DNA of 64,000 bases from Cylindrospermum sp. NIES-4074 (GTDB taxonomy: Bacteria > Cyanobacteriota > Cyanobacteriia > Cyanobacteriales > Nostocaceae). Under the pieces are notes generated by a model. It did not search any database. It was not told the DNA's origin and saw only the letters and a list, made by a program, of their open reading frames with translations. This document shows, in pieces, positions 8,277-59,028 of this stretch. The stretch's first letter is position 1. Each line of letters starts with the position of its first letter. The stretch covers positions 3,395,677 to 3,459,676 of the forward strand of contig AP018269.1 of NCBI GenBank assembly GCA_003994795.1, given 5' to 3'. Both the position numbers and the translations under genes were made by a program.

Positions 8277-10037
8277 GTGCTGTATTTAGCAGAAGTACAA
8301 AAGCAGAGAGGCGGCTTACTCGGTGGCGGTGCCAAAACCGAACTAAGATTACTAGCTTGTCAGCGAAGCGACCAGAATTGGAATACTGTGTCGGAAGAAG
8401 TGATTGCTGCTGAAGAAGCAAGCAAACTAAATGATGGCGCACTGGTGCTGGTGGAACTGAGTCCGAATCGTCAAGTGCAACGGATTCAAGAGGCTGGGCG
8501 GCCGCTGGTGAATATTTTGCAGAATTTTTCCCGCCAGTTAGAAAAATTTAAGCTTAAGGAAGATGAAATTGACCAGTGGAAGCAGTCATTGACGTTTCAG
8601 GCGCAAGAGTTAAATCGCCGAGAAATGGATATGGAAGCACGCTCAGAACAACTACAAGAATTGGAGGATGATTTTCAACGCCTAGAGGAACAAAAGCAGG
8701 AAATTAACACCTCCCGTGAGCAAATCGAACGATTACAAACAGAAATTGAGCGCAATCGCCAAGAACTCGAAGGCGCTTGGGAGCATTTGCGGGGTGAACA
8801 GCGGCGATTGGAGGAATTTAAAGCCGATTGCCAACAGGGGACGGTTTTGGATGAAGAGCAAAGTCGGGCAATCGGTGATTTACTCAATCGCTTGTCTAGC
8901 GGCGTTGTTCCCACCCAAACAGTACGGGACAACCTCCTGATTGCTTTTGAATTGTTAGAACGGCAGCAAGCTACTCTTAACCCCTATTGGCAACAACTTG
9001 AAGTACAACGCAATACGGCTGCTCAACAGCAGGAGGAAGTTGAACGTTTGTGGCAAACGTTGGGCGATCGCCAAAATTTATGTCAACAAGCACAAAGCTC
9101 TCTGGAACAACAATTAGCCCAGTTGCATACGAATACAGCCACACTTACCAGCAAGCAAGAATACGCTCGCATTCTTAAAGAACAGTTACGAAATCAGGAA
9201 GGACTGTACCACCAGATTCACTCCTTAGCTGCTATCTCTAGCGATGCAGTTTTTACCCAGCAAGTTGATGTCGAACCTTTGCAGAAAATGCCCCTAGAAG
9301 AACTGCAAAAATTAGTGCAAGACTTGCAGAATAAACTGTCAATAGATTCCAGTTTCGTTCACGATCAAGAACAAGAACTGAATTACAAACAAGAAACCAT
9401 AGAAGAACTAAAAAGAAAAATTAAGCAAGCATCCGGCCAAGAACTCAAAAATTTAGAAATAGAACTAGTAGACGAACAAGACCTCTACCAAATGGTAAAC
9501 CAATCTTTGGTAGGACAACGGCGCAATTTGCTAGAGCGGGAGAAGATTCTTCAGCAACACCAAGCTGTGCTATCCCAACGCCAAGGACATAGCATTACCA
9601 ACACACAAGCAGATATAAAACTTGATTTAGGGCCAATTCTTTCGCAAATTGAAAGCCAGCGACAACAACTGTCACAGGAATTGCAAAGGCTGGAAAATGA
9701 AATTGAGCAAATGCGTGAGGGTGTTGAGCAAGATCAAGGGAATATTGGTAATCAAACCCAGGATTTAGAATCCAAGCGCCAAGAACTGAAAACCACAGAG
9801 GAGAACTTACTCAACCTGCGAATAGCAACCGCTGAATGTTGGAGTCGAGTTAATCTTTATCAAGAGGCACTACAACCCATTCAGGATGCCCTTGATGAGT
9901 TGCGGCTCAAGCTGCAAGGAATTTCTGAATCTTTGGCTGAAGTTCAGGAAACGGGCGATGATCAATTGCAAGCTGTTACCCAGATCCGTCAGTCTCTCCA
10001 GAGTTTGATATCTCAGCCAGAATTGCTCGCTTCTTAA
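8277..10037 (+). CDS. hmpF: HmpF, coiled-coil motility protein
   Basis: A 586-residue protein with a conserved N-terminal globular part (residues 1-90, beginning MLYLAEVQKQRGG and including ALVLVELSPNRQVQRIQEAG), then almost continuous Gln/Glu/Leu-rich coiled coil to the C-terminus. GTG at 8277 is the likely start because the conserved N-terminus begins there. HmpF of N. punctiforme is a pole-localised coiled-coil protein needed for type IV pilus motility, encoded beside and divergent from the hmp operon; both the protein type and the position match. A short paralogue of its N-terminal half lies at 18494-18931. The gene is convergent with tilS, with only 33 bp between them. Confidence 0.88.
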   Translation: MLYLAEVQKQRGGLLGGGAKTELRLLACQRSDQNWNTVSEEVIAAEEASKLNDGALVLVELSPNRQVQRIQEAGRPLVNILQNFSRQLEKFKLKEDEIDQWKQSLTFQAQELNRREMDMEARSEQLQELEDDFQRLEEQKQEINTSREQIERLQTEIERNRQELEGAWEHLRGEQRRLEEFKADCQQGTVLDEEQSRAIGDLLNRLSSGVVPTQTVRDNLLIAFELLERQQATLNPYWQQLEVQRNTAAQQQEEVERLWQTLGDRQNLCQQAQSSLEQQLAQLHTNTATLTSKQEYARILKEQLRNQEGLYHQIHSLAAISSDAVFTQQVDVEPLQKMPLEELQKLVQDLQNKLSIDSSFVHDQEQELNYKQETIEELKRKIKQASGQELKNLEIELVDEQDLYQMVNQSLVGQRRNLLEREKILQQHQAVLSQRQGHSITNTQADIKLDLGPILSQIESQRQQLSQELQRLENEIEQMREGVEQDQGNIGNQTQDLESKRQELKTTEENLLNLRIATAECWSRVNLYQEALQPIQDALDELRLKLQGISESLAEVQETGDDQLQAVTQIRQSLQSLISQPELLAS

Positions 10038-41783: not shown

Positions 41784-43376
41784 CTAAATAGGCTTTATAC
41801 CATACCATTTAGATTGCCAGTCACCTAGTTGAATATTTACATGACCGACATGAAAATCCTTCCCTCTTTTTGGCAAATACTCTCTTAATTTTAGCCATGA
41901 AATAGTTTCAGATAATGACCTTGATGACTCCAGCTTTCTCATTAGATCGCCAGATTTAATAATAGGAACTTCTAAGTTTTGTACATCAAAGTGACCAATC
42001 CAGTTTTTTGATACAACAATAGTCATTAATTCATAATCAGGTTCAATATTTAGTACCCCTTCAATGAGTCTTCTATCGGAATTTCTGTAAGCATTTTTTA
42101 TTTTTAAAGCTTGTTTGACACTTTTTACAAGTTCTTCAGATCGATCATGACATTCTCTAATTTCTGCTGGCTCAATAAACCATTTCAATTCCATAACAAG
42201 ACATAATCTTTCTTGTCTGTCAATTATAGCTAAATCAACATCTGTACTTTCCTTTGAACCATATTTACAGTCAAAGCTCAAAGACCTGACAAGTTTAATA
42301 AACTCATCTTTAAGAATTGACTCCTTATTTTCAACAAGCTTTGAGTAGATTGTTTTCTCAGATTCTATTTGGTTTAAGAGTACACATAAATTTCTCTCTG
42401 CATCTACGTTTAGCCAGATAAAAGGAGAAATAGCGTAATGGCTATTATACAAATCTATAAGAGGTTGTGTAGCAATATCAGGATGACGGATTCCTGCATT
42501 ACCAAAGGTAATTTTGTCATAAATATTTTTAACAACATTTCTGGGCTGTTTACTATATCTAGCAATATGAGTAATTAGTTCTTGTTTTTTTACTACCCAG
42601 ATTGAAGAACTATAAGCTAAACCTTTCCTACCACGAGCAGCTTCTACTCTAGCAATGTACCAAGCTAAGGAAAGTGCTTGCGTAGTTATAAATATAGACT
42701 TGAATTGTGAAATTGTAAAACCAGAAAATTGCCATTCTTCAGGCAAATTATATTTACTTAGGTAAACTTCGTTACACAAAGCAATTAATTCTGAAGCTAG
42801 ATGGGAATTAAAGTTGACTTTAAATATTTTATGTTTATTATTAAATTCAGTATTGTCAATCACTATTTGAGTGACCTTGTTTAAATCAATTCTTGTTTCA
42901 GCACCATCCCCACTCTTTTTAACTAACCTATTATAAGCTTCATACTCTAGCTCTAGCGTGGTGCAATCAGTTGGAATTAATTTATTTTCAATTACAGAAA
43001 TTTGAATCTTTTTTCTATACCATAGTGGAAATATTAAACAAAAATTCCAATATTGTTTAGATTTTTCTATCCACTCTTGAGCAAGACCATAATGCTCATT
43101 AATTAGCACTTTAGTTAGCTTATTAGAATTTTTAACAGCTTCTTTGAGGCAAATTCTTAGCGGATATGATAACCAGTTAATTAAGTTGTCAATATAAACC
43201 TGTAATTGTTCATCTGACATTGGCTCAACTACTCTTATCCTTAAATGATGATCCTCAACTACAGATAGCAAAGTCCATACTGCTTGTGTGTAGCCAATAT
43301 TTTTGAGTTTGTTAGATAAAAAAGCTGAATCTATTTCTTGCTCGGCTTTTCTTATGAGATCGTCACTTTTATTCAT
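41784..43376 (-). CDS. Large protein with C-terminal PD-(D/E)XK-like nuclease motif
   Basis: 530 residues, mostly helical and unrecognised in the first 370. Near residues 378-400 is TDVDLAIIDRQERLCLVMEL followed by KW, that is Asp-381, Glu-396 and Lys-398 in the D...E-x-K arrangement of PD-(D/E)XK nucleases, with hydrophobic strands on both sides. A helix with Gln/Lys (VKSVKQALKIKNAY) follows, as expected of the fold. It stands among Uma2 and toxin-antitoxin genes in AT-rich DNA, so a restriction or defence role is plausible but not shown. No methylase or helicase is adjacent. Confidence 0.6.
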   Translation of the reverse strand: MNKSDDLIRKAEQEIDSAFLSNKLKNIGYTQAVWTLLSVVEDHHLRIRVVEPMSDEQLQVYIDNLINWLSYPLRICLKEAVKNSNKLTKVLINEHYGLAQEWIEKSKQYWNFCLIFPLWYRKKIQISVIENKLIPTDCTTLELEYEAYNRLVKKSGDGAETRIDLNKVTQIVIDNTEFNNKHKIFKVNFNSHLASELIALCNEVYLSKYNLPEEWQFSGFTISQFKSIFITTQALSLAWYIARVEAARGRKGLAYSSSIWVVKKQELITHIARYSKQPRNVVKNIYDKITFGNAGIRHPDIATQPLIDLYNSHYAISPFIWLNVDAERNLCVLLNQIESEKTIYSKLVENKESILKDEFIKLVRSLSFDCKYGSKESTDVDLAIIDRQERLCLVMELKWFIEPAEIRECHDRSEELVKSVKQALKIKNAYRNSDRRLIEGVLNIEPDYELMTIVVSKNWIGHFDVQNLEVPIIKSGDLMRKLESSRSLSETISWLKLREYLPKRGKDFHVGHVNIQLGDWQSKWYGIKPI

Positions 43377-53446: not shown

Positions 53447-53749
53447 TCAAGCGGGACGCTTGGCAATGTTAGTCAGCCATTCAATCAAAGGTCTTAACGT
53501 ACTTGGTAATGCAGCTTCACTAACGGTGACTGTATGTTGCTGACCGTTATCTTCCACAGTTAACTTATATTGAAAGCGATCGCTTTGGGGAGTTGGGGAA
53601 GTAATTTGTGTAGCTAAATGAAAAAAATCGGCTACTTCTACCAATCGGGGTAACACATCAGCATCATGTGGTGGAAGTGTAGCTGTATCAACGGTCGTTG
53701 TCTTATTAATCCCAGCAAAGCCACCAGTGCGTTCAAATGTGATCCGCAT
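53447..53749 (-). CDS. Emfourin-type protease inhibitor
   Basis: 100 residues: MRITFERTGGFAGINKTTTV, LPRLVEVADFFHLA, YKLTVEDNGQQHTVTVSEAA. This matches emfourins, small inhibitors of M4 protealysin-like metallopeptidases encoded beside the enzyme. Its peptidase partner is directly upstream on the same strand (75 bp gap). It should bind the peptidase in the cytoplasm and keep it inactive. The stop lies at the edge of a MITE-like repeat. Confidence 0.85.
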   Translation of the reverse strand: MRITFERTGGFAGINKTTTVDTATLPPHDADVLPRLVEVADFFHLATQITSPTPQSDRFQYKLTVEDNGQQHTVTVSEAALPSTLRPLIEWLTNIAKRPA

Positions 53750-53824
53750 TATTTACTCTCCGTGGAAATTCTCAATCATGAATGATGAGAGATAGAATTA
53801 GCGATCGCTCATCATTCTTCTATC

Positions 53825-54883
53825 CTAAATCACACCAACCTTTAGCCAAGCATTCTCCACTGCTGTCTTTTCTGAACTATCAACGCCGTAAAGTTCCCCA
53901 GCCACTTTGATAGTTGTGTCAGCAGCCGTTTTGAAATCTGCTTTATTCCGCAGGCGATCGCGTAAACTAATGTACCAGATTTTGCCAGCTTTCTCCCAAG
54001 CATAGCCACCAATCTCAGTCGCTGCTAGGTAAAAAGCATGGTTGGGAATACCTGAGTTGATATGCACCCCGCCATTATCATCATCTCCCATATACTTATC
54101 TCTCATATGTGCTGGCTGAGGATCTTTACCCAACACCGGATCATCATAAGCTGTTCCCGGTGCTTTCAAGGAACGGATACCAGTACCTTTCACATTTGGT
54201 GCTAACAAGCCTTCTCCCATCATCCAGTCAGTCTCCAAGGCTGTTTCATTTTCTAGCCGCTGTTTGACTAAAATCCCGAAGACATCAGCAAAAGACTCAT
54301 TCAGCGCCCCAGATTCACCGTTATAATCTAAACCCGCTTCATATTGGGTGATACCATGAGTTAATTCATGGGCAATGATATCAACGCATTTGGTGAAACG
54401 CTGAAACAACTCACCATCACCATCACCATAAACCATTTGGTCGCCATTCCAAAAGGCGTTGTCATATTCGACACCAAAATGCACTGTAGAATCTAAACGC
54501 AGTCCCTTGTCATCAATAGAATTGCGCTCAAAAACCTCATAAAAGAAGTCGTAGGTAGCGCCAGTAGCGTCATAGGCTTCATTGGCAGCTATATCTGTGG
54601 TGGGAGGATCACCTTCACCACGCACCAATATACCCGGAAGATTCTGAGTATTTTTAGCATTATAGATAGTGCGGCGTTTTACTCCAGGGGAAGGCGCAAA
54701 GAAGAGATTACCGACAGCATCCCGTCTGCCGCGAATCTGCGCGGAAAGATTCAACGTCTGAAAAGCCCAATTTCTGTGATGAGATTCACCGTTAATGGCG
54801 ACGCTTTGCAGCAAATGCGGTGGTAAGATGCAACAAATGGGACATCTAGTATTGTGTAAAGATTTCTTATTTTTTCGAGCCAT
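53825..54883 (-). CDS. Protealysin-like M4 metallopeptidase
   Basis: 352 residues. A short propeptide-like N-terminus (NTRCPICCILPPHLLQSVAI), typical of protealysin, replaces the long thermolysin prosequence, and there is no signal peptide. Catalytic motif DIIAHELTHGITQYEAGLDY gives two zinc His and the Glu; GALNESFADVFGILV gives the third ligand; HINSGIPNHAFYLAATEIGG and the later active-site region complete the domain. It is paired with an emfourin inhibitor gene downstream. It is probably a cytoplasmic or lysis-released protease. Confidence 0.92.
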   Translation of the reverse strand: MARKNKKSLHNTRCPICCILPPHLLQSVAINGESHHRNWAFQTLNLSAQIRGRRDAVGNLFFAPSPGVKRRTIYNAKNTQNLPGILVRGEGDPPTTDIAANEAYDATGATYDFFYEVFERNSIDDKGLRLDSTVHFGVEYDNAFWNGDQMVYGDGDGELFQRFTKCVDIIAHELTHGITQYEAGLDYNGESGALNESFADVFGILVKQRLENETALETDWMMGEGLLAPNVKGTGIRSLKAPGTAYDDPVLGKDPQPAHMRDKYMGDDDNGGVHINSGIPNHAFYLAATEIGGYAWEKAGKIWYISLRDRLRNKADFKTAADTTIKVAGELYGVDSSEKTAVENAWLKVGVI

Positions 54884-55439: not shown

Positions 55440-55720
55440 ATTAAAGAGCTTCTCGGCTTGATGGAATTGACACAAGAAGATTTTGCAGATTAGCTGGGTA
55501 TAACTTTGTCTACTTTAACAGGTGGGAGAATAGGCAATTAGATTACCTACGATACTCTACCCCAACGCATCCATCACCGATGGCAAGGAAGATTTTTAAG
55601 CAGAAGCTTGATGAAATGAATAAATTTACAACTGCTGGCATTTACTTCACCCTGTTCAAAAAAATTGGCTTAAAGCAATTTGCAATTTCTTTTTCCAGCA
55701 ACTTTGGTGCATTTTTATGA
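55440..55720 (+). pseudogene. Decayed helix-turn-helix (XRE) gene
   Basis: From 55440 the plus strand gives IKELLGLMELTQEDFAD, a TAG at 55491, then LGITLST. Near 55510-55520 the frame shifts, and the continuation reads FNRWENRQLDYLRYSTPTHP and SPMARKIFKQKLDEM. The intact family has the order LTQ-x-x-FA-x-x-LGVT-x-x-T-x-x-RWE-x-G...PSPLA, so this is one gene broken by a stop and a frameshift. No start codon with a ribosome site is evident. No partner gene remains. Confidence 0.75.
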
Positions 55721-56016
55721 CCTTCAGGTATTTCTAAAGTCAATTTGCTTTTGAAAGAGAAGAAGATATAAATCTATGGAGTGCAAAATTATATATACTT
55801 TTAAAAATTCCCTGTTTTCATTGAGTGTTTTCCGTACCCAGTAAACTAATAGCTGTTGAAAAAATTCATCACAGTTCTATATCAGAAGTAAACTAGTTAG
55901 TACAAATAAATCATTTTTGAACTAGTATTGATATACTAGCTTGAACGTGATAAACACTCTTGATATTTCAACGCTCAATTTTCAAGAATCTTCAAAGTAG
56001 TGTAGATAAAGTAGCA

Positions 56017-59000
56017 ATGCCACAAGTAGAGAAGATAAAGATATTCCTAGCTTCGCCAAGTAATGCACCTAAAGAACGTAAATATTTAGTTGAAGTAATC
56101 GATGAAATTAACCGTACTATTGCTTCTAGTAAAGGGGTGATGCTAGAGATAATCCGCTCGGAGAACGCCCGTCCGGGTTTTGGTGAGGATGGTCAAGCAG
56201 TTCTCAACAATCAAATCGGCGAAATGCAACAGTATGAGTTATTTGTTGGCATTATGTGGAACCGCATCGGGACTCCAACACAGCGTGCTGTGTCTGGGAC
56301 AGTTGAAGAATTTGAGCGGGCTGCTGAATCGTTGCAGAAAGAGGGTCAGCCTGATATATGGTTTTATTTTCGACAATCAGGAGCACAACTTAATACAGAA
56401 AAAGAACTAGAACAACGACAAAAGGTACTGGAGTTTAAGAGAACACTTCAGGGAAAAGCATTGATCCGAGAATATTCTACTCCCACAAAATTCCGTGATA
56501 ACTTCCGTGAGCATATATCGTCATGGTTAGGCAGACGTGAAAGCAAAACTCTTCAACCCAGTGGAACATACTCCTTACCTGAAAATGTTGACACTCAAAC
56601 AGATCAATCAGAGGAGGAAATCCCCAAATTTATTAATCAGATCACTGAAGAAATTGAAAAGGGAGAGTTGAAACTCTTAAAAAAAACGTCGCTTTTCAAA
56701 AAACAGCAGATAATGACAGATGAAATAATTAATCATATAAAACAATGTTTATTGAATAAATTTAATGGTGAGGAGACAAAAATTACAGAGCATCTAAAGA
56801 ATTTTTTAGTCAAGCATAAATCAGAATTATCAAATAATTATGCGGCAGGTAATATTCTAAATTTATTATTGAAACTCGACTTAGAAAAAGATTTTAGCTA
56901 CTTTGACCTATCTGATATCTCTATTTGGGAGGCTGACTTACAAAAGGCTATTTTAACAGGAGTAGATTTCTCTAATTCTGACCTAAAAAACTCTAGCTTT
57001 TCTGAACCATTAGGTTGCATTCATTCTATCGCTTTTAATACTGATGGTAGTTTATTTGCTACAGGGGATGCTCATGGCTCAATTCGAGTTCATAAGACAG
57101 AAAGTTTGGAACTCTGTATTTTTAATAACGAAAGGGGAAACCAGATTTGGTCGGTTGCTTTTGGCTCAAACACTCAATATCCTCAAATGTTAGCTTGGGG
57201 AGCAGAAGACGGTAGTGTTGTTGTTAAAAGAAAATCCAATAATGTCATTGACAGTTCATCAGATAATATTACATTTACAAATATTTACCAGGGTAATGAG
57301 GACAGACGTATATTATCGGTAGCATTCAGCCCTAATGGAAATATTTTTGCAATTGGAGGAGATGGAAATAAAGCAATAAAGTTAGTAGAGATTAATAATA
57401 ATCAGAAGGGAGCTTTGGATGCAACTGATGTGTCTTGCATGACTTTTATTGATGACGACTTTATTGCTAGCGGTAGCCAGCATGGAGAAATTAGTCTTTG
57501 GCATTTAAAAACGAAGAAGCAAGATAAAAATATTCAAAACGTACATGAAGGAGTAGTACGTTGTATTGCATTTAATCAAAACAGAAGAATTTTAGCCAGT
57601 GGAGGTGAAGATGGAAAAGTGAAAATGTTTTCTATCCCCACTCTAAATCAATTGGAATTCGATTCTCCACAAGAAATTACTCAGGTACGGACATTAGCGT
57701 TTAGTCAGGATGGGAATATTCTTGCTGTTGGAGGTATCGATAAAAATCTCGAAGGACAGAGCGAACATAAGATTTGGCTGTGGGAGTTTAAGGAGGGAAG
57801 ATGGAGTAGGATGGGCAAATTGGATAACTTAAATAAGGATGGTCATGAACATTTGATTAGAAGTTTAGCATTTTGCCCTAATCCTAACCAACGGCAACTT
57901 TTAATAAGTGGTGGTGATGGTCGCACCGTCAAATTTTGGGATATCAATAACACACAATGTAACCAGACTTTGAGAGGATATGCTAATCGTATTTGGTCAG
58001 TAGCATTTAGTGGAGATGGCAAAAGTTTTGCCTGTGGAGGTGAAGATAATAAAATTCGTCTTTGGAATTACCATGATCGCACACATATTCCCACTTATAC
58101 CCTTTCCAAACATACTGCTTGGGTTTGGTCAGTAGCATTTAGCCCAAACGCTAAAATTTTAGCCAGTGGTAGTGAAGACAATAAGATTTTTTTGTGGCAG
58201 TTAAAAAAGCAAAAGTGGCAATACATTAGTGAGTTGAAAGGACAACATAATAAACGCGTTCGATGTGTTGCTTTTAATCCTTCTGGGGATAGGTTAGCTA
58301 GCGCAGGCAATGATAAAAAAGTTGTTTTATGGGACATAAGTAATGTAAAAAATCCTAGACTATTACAGGAATTTACTCAACACAGTGACCGAGTACTATC
58401 CCTAGCTTTTAGTCCAAATGGTCTTTACCTAGCTAGCAGCAGCCGCGATCATACTATTCGTCTAATAGATATCAAGACCCGGAATGGGCAAAGTAATCTG
58501 GGGGATCATGAACACCGTCATCAAGACCAAGTTCATAGCATTGCTTTTAGCCCAGACAGCGATAAATTGGTTAGCGGAGGTTTTGATAAAAAACTAAAAT
58601 TGTGGGAAGTTCCTTCTGGAAATTGTATTCAAACTTGGACTGAATATCAAAAAATACTTTCTGTCGCTTTTCATCCCACAAAGCAAATCGTTGCTAGTGC
58701 TGGAGATAATCACATAATTACGCTATGGGATATAAGTGATGCAAATAATAGTAAACCTACTATTATCAAGACACTCAAAGGACATAAACGTGCTGTAGAG
58801 TCTATAGCATTCAGTCCTGATGGCAAGAAGCTTATTAGCTGTAGCCAAGATCAGACTATTAAGTTTTGGGAAATAGATGGAAAAATTAATACTAGTATTC
58901 ATACTATAGAACTTGGCAAACCATATCAGGGTATGAATATTTCTGGTGTTAGTAATTTAGACCGTTCCCAAATATCTGCGCTAGAAGAATTGGGAGCTTC

Positions 59001-59028
59001 AAAGTATTTAAACTTTCCTGATGTTTGA
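56017..59028 (+). CDS. DUF4062-like/TIR-like N-terminal domain fused to 14 WD40 repeats, without an NTPase module
   Basis: About 1003 residues from ATG at 56017 (an upstream TTG at 55960 is possible). Residues 1-180: KIKIFLASPSNAPKERKYLV, YELFVGIMWNRIGTPTQRAV and SGTVEEFERA resemble the DUF4062/TIR-like domain found at the N-terminus of STAND (NLR-like) proteins. A helical linker and a pentapeptide-like stretch (DLSDISIWEADLQKAILTGV, DFSNSDLKNSSF) follow at about 300-340. From about residue 350 to 960 I count 14 WD40 repeats (SVAFSPNAKILASGSEDNKI and kin), enough for two seven-bladed propellers. I find no Walker A or NB-ARC. A sensor-effector protein is inferred. Confidence 0.85.
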   Translation: MPQVEKIKIFLASPSNAPKERKYLVEVIDEINRTIASSKGVMLEIIRSENARPGFGEDGQAVLNNQIGEMQQYELFVGIMWNRIGTPTQRAVSGTVEEFERAAESLQKEGQPDIWFYFRQSGAQLNTEKELEQRQKVLEFKRTLQGKALIREYSTPTKFRDNFREHISSWLGRRESKTLQPSGTYSLPENVDTQTDQSEEEIPKFINQITEEIEKGELKLLKKTSLFKKQQIMTDEIINHIKQCLLNKFNGEETKITEHLKNFLVKHKSELSNNYAAGNILNLLLKLDLEKDFSYFDLSDISIWEADLQKAILTGVDFSNSDLKNSSFSEPLGCIHSIAFNTDGSLFATGDAHGSIRVHKTESLELCIFNNERGNQIWSVAFGSNTQYPQMLAWGAEDGSVVVKRKSNNVIDSSSDNITFTNIYQGNEDRRILSVAFSPNGNIFAIGGDGNKAIKLVEINNNQKGALDATDVSCMTFIDDDFIASGSQHGEISLWHLKTKKQDKNIQNVHEGVVRCIAFNQNRRILASGGEDGKVKMFSIPTLNQLEFDSPQEITQVRTLAFSQDGNILAVGGIDKNLEGQSEHKIWLWEFKEGRWSRMGKLDNLNKDGHEHLIRSLAFCPNPNQRQLLISGGDGRTVKFWDINNTQCNQTLRGYANRIWSVAFSGDGKSFACGGEDNKIRLWNYHDRTHIPTYTLSKHTAWVWSVAFSPNAKILASGSEDNKIFLWQLKKQKWQYISELKGQHNKRVRCVAFNPSGDRLASAGNDKKVVLWDISNVKNPRLLQEFTQHSDRVLSLAFSPNGLYLASSSRDHTIRLIDIKTRNGQSNLGDHEHRHQDQVHSIAFSPDSDKLVSGGFDKKLKLWEVPSGNCIQTWTEYQKILSVAFHPTKQIVASAGDNHIITLWDISDANNSKPTIIKTLKGHKRAVESIAFSPDGKKLISCSQDQTIKFWEIDGKINTSIHTIELGKPYQGMNISGVSNLDRSQISALEELGASKYLNFPDV

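Follow-up and report, generated by a model that had tools for sequence, protein, structure and literature searches.

The gene at 56017-59028 of the window (the whole 64,000-nt stretch of Cylindrospermum sp. NIES-4074 contig AP018269.1 analyzed here) encodes a DUF4062-neck-WD40 protein, and the sequence evidence supports its identification as a derived NB-ARC-WD40 (NLR-like) protein without its ATPase. NLR/STAND receptors are held to be switched by their ATP cycle. A clade that lacks this switch yet carries varied, mostly intact immune outputs would offer a natural test of whether sensor-driven clustering is enough to turn such outputs on. The locus also holds a record of an output domain moving between defense systems, with the donor operon still readable in the DNA, as are the junction and the deletion in the partner gene. 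All feature coordinates are collected in Table 1.

The 1003-codon reading frame is uninterrupted. An alternative in-frame TTG lies upstream at 55960, but the ATG was preferred because the donor DUF4062 family (described below) starts at the same place. A preliminary description of this gene, made from its letters alone, had proposed an N-terminal effector-type domain, a helical and pentapeptide-like linker, and 14 WD40 repeats in two propellers. The effector-type domain was recovered as DUF4062 by both Pfam and PADLOC. Residues 8-102 matched Pfam DUF4062 with E 7.8e-5 (23.2 bits on the fragment, slightly below the 24.7-bit cut-off; the genome-wide search gave 24.7 bits, i.e. at the cut-off), and residues 6-171 matched PADLOC PDC-S60 with E 1.2e-43. 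Its labeling as “TIR-like” agrees with PMC13174449 (a 2026 preprint), which reports DUF4062 to be a TIR-like NADase of antiphage defense with a catalytic Glu. The pentapeptide-like part of the linker was found by Pfam. Twelve Pfam WD40 stretches were present, and 14 blade cores were picked by spacing among 18 motif matches. The repeat count therefore stood, and from it we infer that the cores would form two seven-bladed propellers. In PDB, a profile search with residues 1-350 returned pentapeptide proteins and chance xylanase matches only, and the best match of the DUF4062 profile (alignment A6) was an uninformative one to a sorting nexin (E 0.76).

The Walker A motif, which the preliminary description had reported as missing, was found neither by motif nor by profile, and no Pfam NTPase match fell in residues 172-358. 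Four NB-ARC-WD40 proteins were used to build a profile of 418 positions that spans the P-loop to the neck. It aligned solely by its last 91 positions (328-418), on residues 201-284; positions 1-327 were unmatched, the winged helix being missing as well as the P-loop/ARC region. Because profile positions 328-418 alone match it, the helical linker, which is real, is on sequence grounds the arm lying C-terminal to the winged helix of NB-ARC-WD40 proteins (here termed the neck), and the ATPase appears to be gone. A P-loop hidden in residues 180-350 had been considered as a possible objection; neither Pfam nor the profile gave any sequence sign of one.

A module profile was made from seven of the ten members described here (the other three were not used) and searched over 217 genomes of the window's family, with matches of E 1e-110 or better being kept. 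Fourteen genomes passed, in two groups. Ten, namely that of the window and nine others, scored 902-1122 bits and have this neck-WD40 module but no ATPase; the next best score was 526, at the head of a group of four (487-526 bits) whose proteins are NB-ARC proteins with Walker A. Pfam placed caspase or metallophosphatase heads ahead of NB-ARC in the three of these four to which it was applied. Among the ten, seven reading frames are complete. Walker A was absent from all eight members scanned (seven complete and one partial, the two broken by stops being excluded from the motif scan), and positions 1-250 of the NB-ARC-WD40 profile (P-loop, ARC) were matched in none of the members scanned. As a control, the motif was present in 42/42 non-family locus records having a neck and at least 300 residues upstream of it (some records repeat a gene). 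In a class-wide sample of 388 genomes, three scored >240 bits, all within the window's family, and the next scored 134. A pattern scan of genome contigs gave four loci: three ATPase-less members and one distant 1231-residue relative. No phage-borne copy of the module was confirmed in one scan of viral contigs, and the 13 plasmid records found were all of <60% identity (best 47%), eight being annotated as NB-ARC.

The ten ATPase-less members formed one clade (100/100) in a neck-WD40 tree with 52 rows, and three NB-ARC rows (G475, G540, and G477) were its sister group (100/100). The remaining 39 rows, all with Walker A, fell outside this grouping; G034 was omitted, as its neck pattern was not found. 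Because the ten members make up one clade that is sister to NB-ARC-WD40 proteins, the ATPase was probably lost once, in the clade ancestor. Chance, or a deletion in a single copy, is ruled out by the ten-genome clade, the tree, and the Walker A control. The suggestion that the protein is a derived STAND-type form was thus borne out, with a loss common to ten genomes and not peculiar to the window copy. The sensor halves are 49-75% identical across head types, and the pairwise ratio of nonsynonymous to synonymous substitution rates (dN/dS) of neck-WD40 was 0.37-0.68, i.e. <1.

Two findings go beyond the preliminary description: the output domain varies among relatives of one sensor, and the DUF4062 of the window derives from a Thoeris-like operon. 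By sequence comparison, the N-terminal output domain was replaced several times in the clade, sometimes with its upstream partner gene; heads of different type have at most weak similarity to one another. The first branch of the clade (G020) carries a PNP nucleosidase head (PNP_UDP_1, 3.8e-27); the rest divides into the TIR members and a group that unites DUF4062 with the four cyclase members. Nostoc sp. LPT has one TIR head, and G433 and two broken relatives have another (TIR_2, 2.4e-25 and 2.4e-16). The two TIR types share 33% identity over 58 residues, against 78% for the proteins encoded by their upstream partner genes. The partner gene (160-178 residues) stands directly upstream of both types (L070 8779-9261; L092 6445-6981), and searches of Pfam, NCBIfam, and PADLOC with its product gave no match.

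A class III cyclase head was assigned in G028, G562, Fortiea, and N. spongiaeforme by profile comparison to PDB 3mr7 (E 1.2e-5); Pfam Guanylate_cyc reached just 0.035, on one of the three cyclase members scanned. A PycTM gene (Pfam 1.8e-6, PADLOC 9.2e-25) lies 55-58 bp upstream of the cyclase members. When the 217 genomes were searched with the cyclase domain, 17 loci were obtained at E 1e-5 or better (four WD40 fusions and 13 without WD40), and PycTM was upstream in all 17. The C-terminal parts of these PycTM-preceded cyclases (L173-L189) vary: none, WD40, or formylglycine-enzyme-like as judged by eye (L180, L185). We read them as putative Pycsar systems with exchangeable sensors. The window genome has one PycTM-cyclase locus (L189, contig C4).

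The DUF4062 head of the window was, as the DNA and protein comparisons indicate, imported from a DUF4062/ThsA-Macro operon. Its close relatives (73-80% identity) are free-standing proteins of ca. 480 residues, and a ThsA_Macro-TM gene adjoins the close homologue in 13 of 14 fetched loci (ThsA_Macro domain E 7.8e-55 and 2.3e-56 in partner genes). A second DUF4062 gene (532-533 residues) precedes both genes in four loci (L143, L144, L145, and L034), making a three-gene row in which ThsA-Macro-TM stands between the longer and the shorter DUF4062 gene; nine further loci have the DUF4062 and ThsA-Macro-TM pair. Such rows look like Thoeris with DUF4062 replacing the ThsB TIR. At the DNA level, the closest locus (L144) belongs to pNe_3, a conjugative plasmid of Nostoc edaphicum CCNP1411 that has mobC and a relaxase next to these genes. 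Donor-operon DNA is 80-87% identical to the window. The partner gene survives as a remnant in which 55607-55715 matches the Macro gene start and 727 bp are deleted internally, the figure being the same against L144, L145, and L034. Past the DUF4062 domain, 39 bp are 85% identical to L144 4436-4398 and end at ca. residue 197, immediately ahead of the neck. This scrap reads ENVDTQTDQS in the window and ESVDTQADQS in the donor, and was left by a deletion relative to the donor. A search of the window genome for a Macro-TM protein gave this remnant, with one stop, as the sole match (positive controls G040 and G007); a separate Pfam search for Macro in the same genome was run without a positive control.

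E98 is invariant in 11 aligned DUF4062 sequences, and R21 is also kept (alignment A6). E98 was read as the catalytic Glu and is the presumed counterpart of KpSwz E97. The reading that we consider probable, with modest confidence, is that an NLR-derived receptor dropped its NB-ARC ATPase, kept its neck and WD40 sensor, and would act independently of ATP with NAD+ destruction as its output. The WD40 propellers would bind a phage or damage signal, and this binding would gather or free the DUF4062 domains without an ATP cycle. The domains would then hydrolyze NAD+, and growth would stop or the cell would die before phage release. The neck would be the joint for attaching other outputs, because an ATPase would no longer limit which output fits.

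Several observations weigh against this reading. Stops disrupt G364 and G483, and a frame break disrupts G562, so that seven of the ten members are intact. The NB-ARC-WD40 profile matches just three of eight members (PNP, window, and Nostoc LPT). A possible winged-helix remnant in the cyclase members is a weak match (E 0.002) combined with reading by eye. The window protein has N in place of D16 of the SPxDxxxER motif, a residue that is D in all ten other sequences of the 11 aligned. The DUF4062 dN/dS is 0.36-0.49 against the donors and 0.09-0.21 among them, and there are 25 window-only changes at positions where the other four sequences agree. Since the window genome no longer has the Macro partner encoded by the donor operon, a receiver would be missing if DUF4062 made a signal and did not solely destroy NAD+. 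No other defense genes were recognized beside the window gene in a search that was not exhaustive.

D16N and the raised dN/dS allow for reduced DUF4062 activity, and would fit either weakening or adaptation. Together with the shrinkage of the Macro partner to a remnant and the broken family members, they form the case for the strongest alternative, in which the sensor module is real and the DUF4062 head of the window, recently imported and deprived of its partner, is catalytically weak or decaying by drift. That state of affairs seems unlikely to us, as the 1003-codon frame is complete, E98 and R21 are kept, and dN/dS is <0.5; adaptation to a new partner domain could explain the faster change equally well.

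The preliminary description had left open whether the WD40 region senses alone or a partner supplies the ATPase. The window genome has 17 NB-ARC loci, whose related necks and WD40 arrays could pair with those of the ATPase-less protein, which would then be a helper or decoy served by an ATPase in trans. Such pairing is improbable. There is no NB-ARC-like sequence in window 34000-64000, and the nearest locus is ca. 248 kb away; of the other family loci, seven of nine have none and two of nine have a weak, distant match ca. 4 and 7 kb off. There is no conserved linked ATPase. This distance and empty interval favor a protein that senses with no ATPase of its own, a trans ATPase from the 17 loci being the less likely option.

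The regular adjacency of a ThsA-Macro-TM gene to close DUF4062 homologues raises the idea that DUF4062 makes a nucleotide signal for a Macro effector, as ThsB does for ThsA in Thoeris, and that the system is orphaned here. We give this little credence, as the window genome has no Macro-TM gene besides the remnant and the published DUF4062 enzymes yield ADP-ribose and nicotinamide (PMC13174449). A regulatory or scaffold WD40 protein with enzyme-like heads for signaling or metabolism, suggested by the adjoining sugar phosphatase and the location outside any obvious defense island, is very improbable, since PNP, TIR, PycTM/cyclase, and DUF4062 all match defense families and the cassette is patchily present, with an empty site and a scar.

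That phosphatase, a sucrose-phosphate phosphatase, was treated as a companion of the cassette. Its gene is convergent with the WD40 gene in all ten members (across a contig break, L092/L110, in G433, and with a phosphatase fragment between in G020) and likewise in three of the four NB-ARC loci (L095-L097). The phosphatase gene is directly upstream of ruvA in 11/11 control loci, one with a 1.1-kb gap. In the window genome, the native phosphatase beside ruvA is a fragment ca. 630 kb away (L169), and the intact copy is of the cassette-linked type. Five of the ten cassettes are at the broken native phosphatase/ruvA site (G020, G551, G433, G364, and G483). In three of them an N-terminal phosphatase piece was found beyond the cassette, and the G020 insertion sits between the copies of a 145-bp direct repeat (99%). 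The four cyclase cassettes are at another site, beside moaC. The flanks of these cassettes are present without the WD40 gene at L100 (G566), an empty site, and a scar of a partner gene and a WD40 end lies beside a phosphatase at L107 (G541). Window-type phosphatases, defined at 318 bits or more by a cut made by eye, occur among the matches listed in at least 20 genomes, nine with the WD40 gene, one with a scar, and ten with neither. Simple co-inheritance of phosphatase and WD40 genes was not fully supported: the complete G020 copy groups with native genes (85/72) in a tree from which four of 11 native phosphatases were dropped (motif not found), and three ATPase-bearing loci carry another phosphatase type. 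Nor was insertion in the phosphatase supported as a rule, given that half of the cassettes lie elsewhere than at a broken native gene and that G567 has an intact native phosphatase beside ruvA.

A wider reading can be put forward tentatively, with slightly less than even confidence. ATPase-discarding NLR-like receptors may serve as a plug-and-play WD40 sensor that has been joined in turn, through recombination at the neck, to Thoeris-like, TIR, Pycsar, and PNP outputs, often with a partner gene. The module would travel with a phosphatase copy that takes over from the native gene disrupted where the cassette inserted, making it hard for the host to shed the cassette neighborhood.

Relative to known systems, the window protein is closest to the cyanobacterial NB-ARC-WD40 (STAND/NLR-like) proteins: the neck, pentapeptide strip, WD40 array, and C-terminal tail are homologous, and two of the three nearest ATPase-bearing tree relatives, as well as G034, are also convergent with a sucrose-phosphatase gene. 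It differs from them by lacking the P-loop/ARC region and winged helix. APAF-1 is the classical WD40-sensing, ATP-driven case (PMC13174449, PMC7159879). Swarozyc, a DUF4062 antiphage NADase (PMC13174449), shares the DUF4062 head with its conserved Glu, the activity being putative here; the DUF4062 NADase is reported there to be triggered by phage portal, and TEP1 to be related to it. The window protein instead has neck and WD40 as its sensor, without the C-terminal helix-turn-helix/winged portal-binding auxiliary domain, and D16 is changed. TEP1, NWD1, and NWD2 (DUF4062-NACHT, several with WD40; PMC13174449) also combine N-terminal DUF4062 with C-terminal WD40, but in the window protein neither NACHT nor any other ATPase separates the two. 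The link to Thoeris with Macro-TM ThsA is the ThsA_Macro gene (E 7.8e-55) next to the donor DUF4062 gene, whereas the window has just a remnant and no linked ThsA gene, and DUF4062 occupies the place of the ThsB TIR. The four cyclase relatives resemble Pycsar (cyclase and PycTM) in their predicted class III cyclase and upstream PycTM, as do the 13 loci without WD40; unlike in Pycsar, the cyclase is fused to an ATPase-less WD40 sensor. iSTAND proteins (PMC7159879) also depart from the active STAND ATPase, but as described there they retain an inactive STAND domain, which is removed in the window protein. The open-access literature, outside of which most subscription papers lie, gave no account of NB-ARC-WD40 relatives that lack the ATPase and have exchanged heads, and no paper coupling Pycsar with WD40.

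Table 1. Features of the ATPase-less WD40 locus, in window positions.
Feature	Position	Strand	Basis
ATPase-less DUF4062-neck-WD40 gene	56017..59028	+	Open reading frame confirmed, 1003 residues, ATG start
DUF4062 (TIR-like) output domain, residues 1-182	56017..56562	+	Pfam, PADLOC, alignment A6
Scrap of C-terminal part of donor gene, residues ~184-197	56568..56606	+	DNA and protein comparison
Helical neck, residues 201-284	56617..56868	+	NB-ARC-WD40 profile positions 328-418 of 418
Pentapeptide-like strip, residues 304-329	56926..57003	+	Pfam PF00805, E 7.3e-6
WD40 region, 14 blade cores, residues ~331-955, presumed sensor	57007..58881	+	Pfam WD40, motif positions
Continuous donor-operon DNA: Macro gene 3' end, intergenic, DUF4062 codons 1-182	55711..56563	+	82% to L144 5501-4666
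ThsA-Macro/TM partner-gene remnant, 5' end fused to 3' end	55607..55756	+	DNA matches to L144, L145, L143, L034
Convergent sucrose-phosphate phosphatase gene, intact copy of genome	59055..59855	-	Pfam S6PP, E 6.1e-75

Elsewhere in the window, the long reading frames at 8277-10037 and 41784-43376 (586 and 530 residues) had no Pfam match at 1e-6. An M4-type metallopeptidase gene and a neighboring emfourin gene are located at 53447-54883 and are likely a protease-inhibitor pair.

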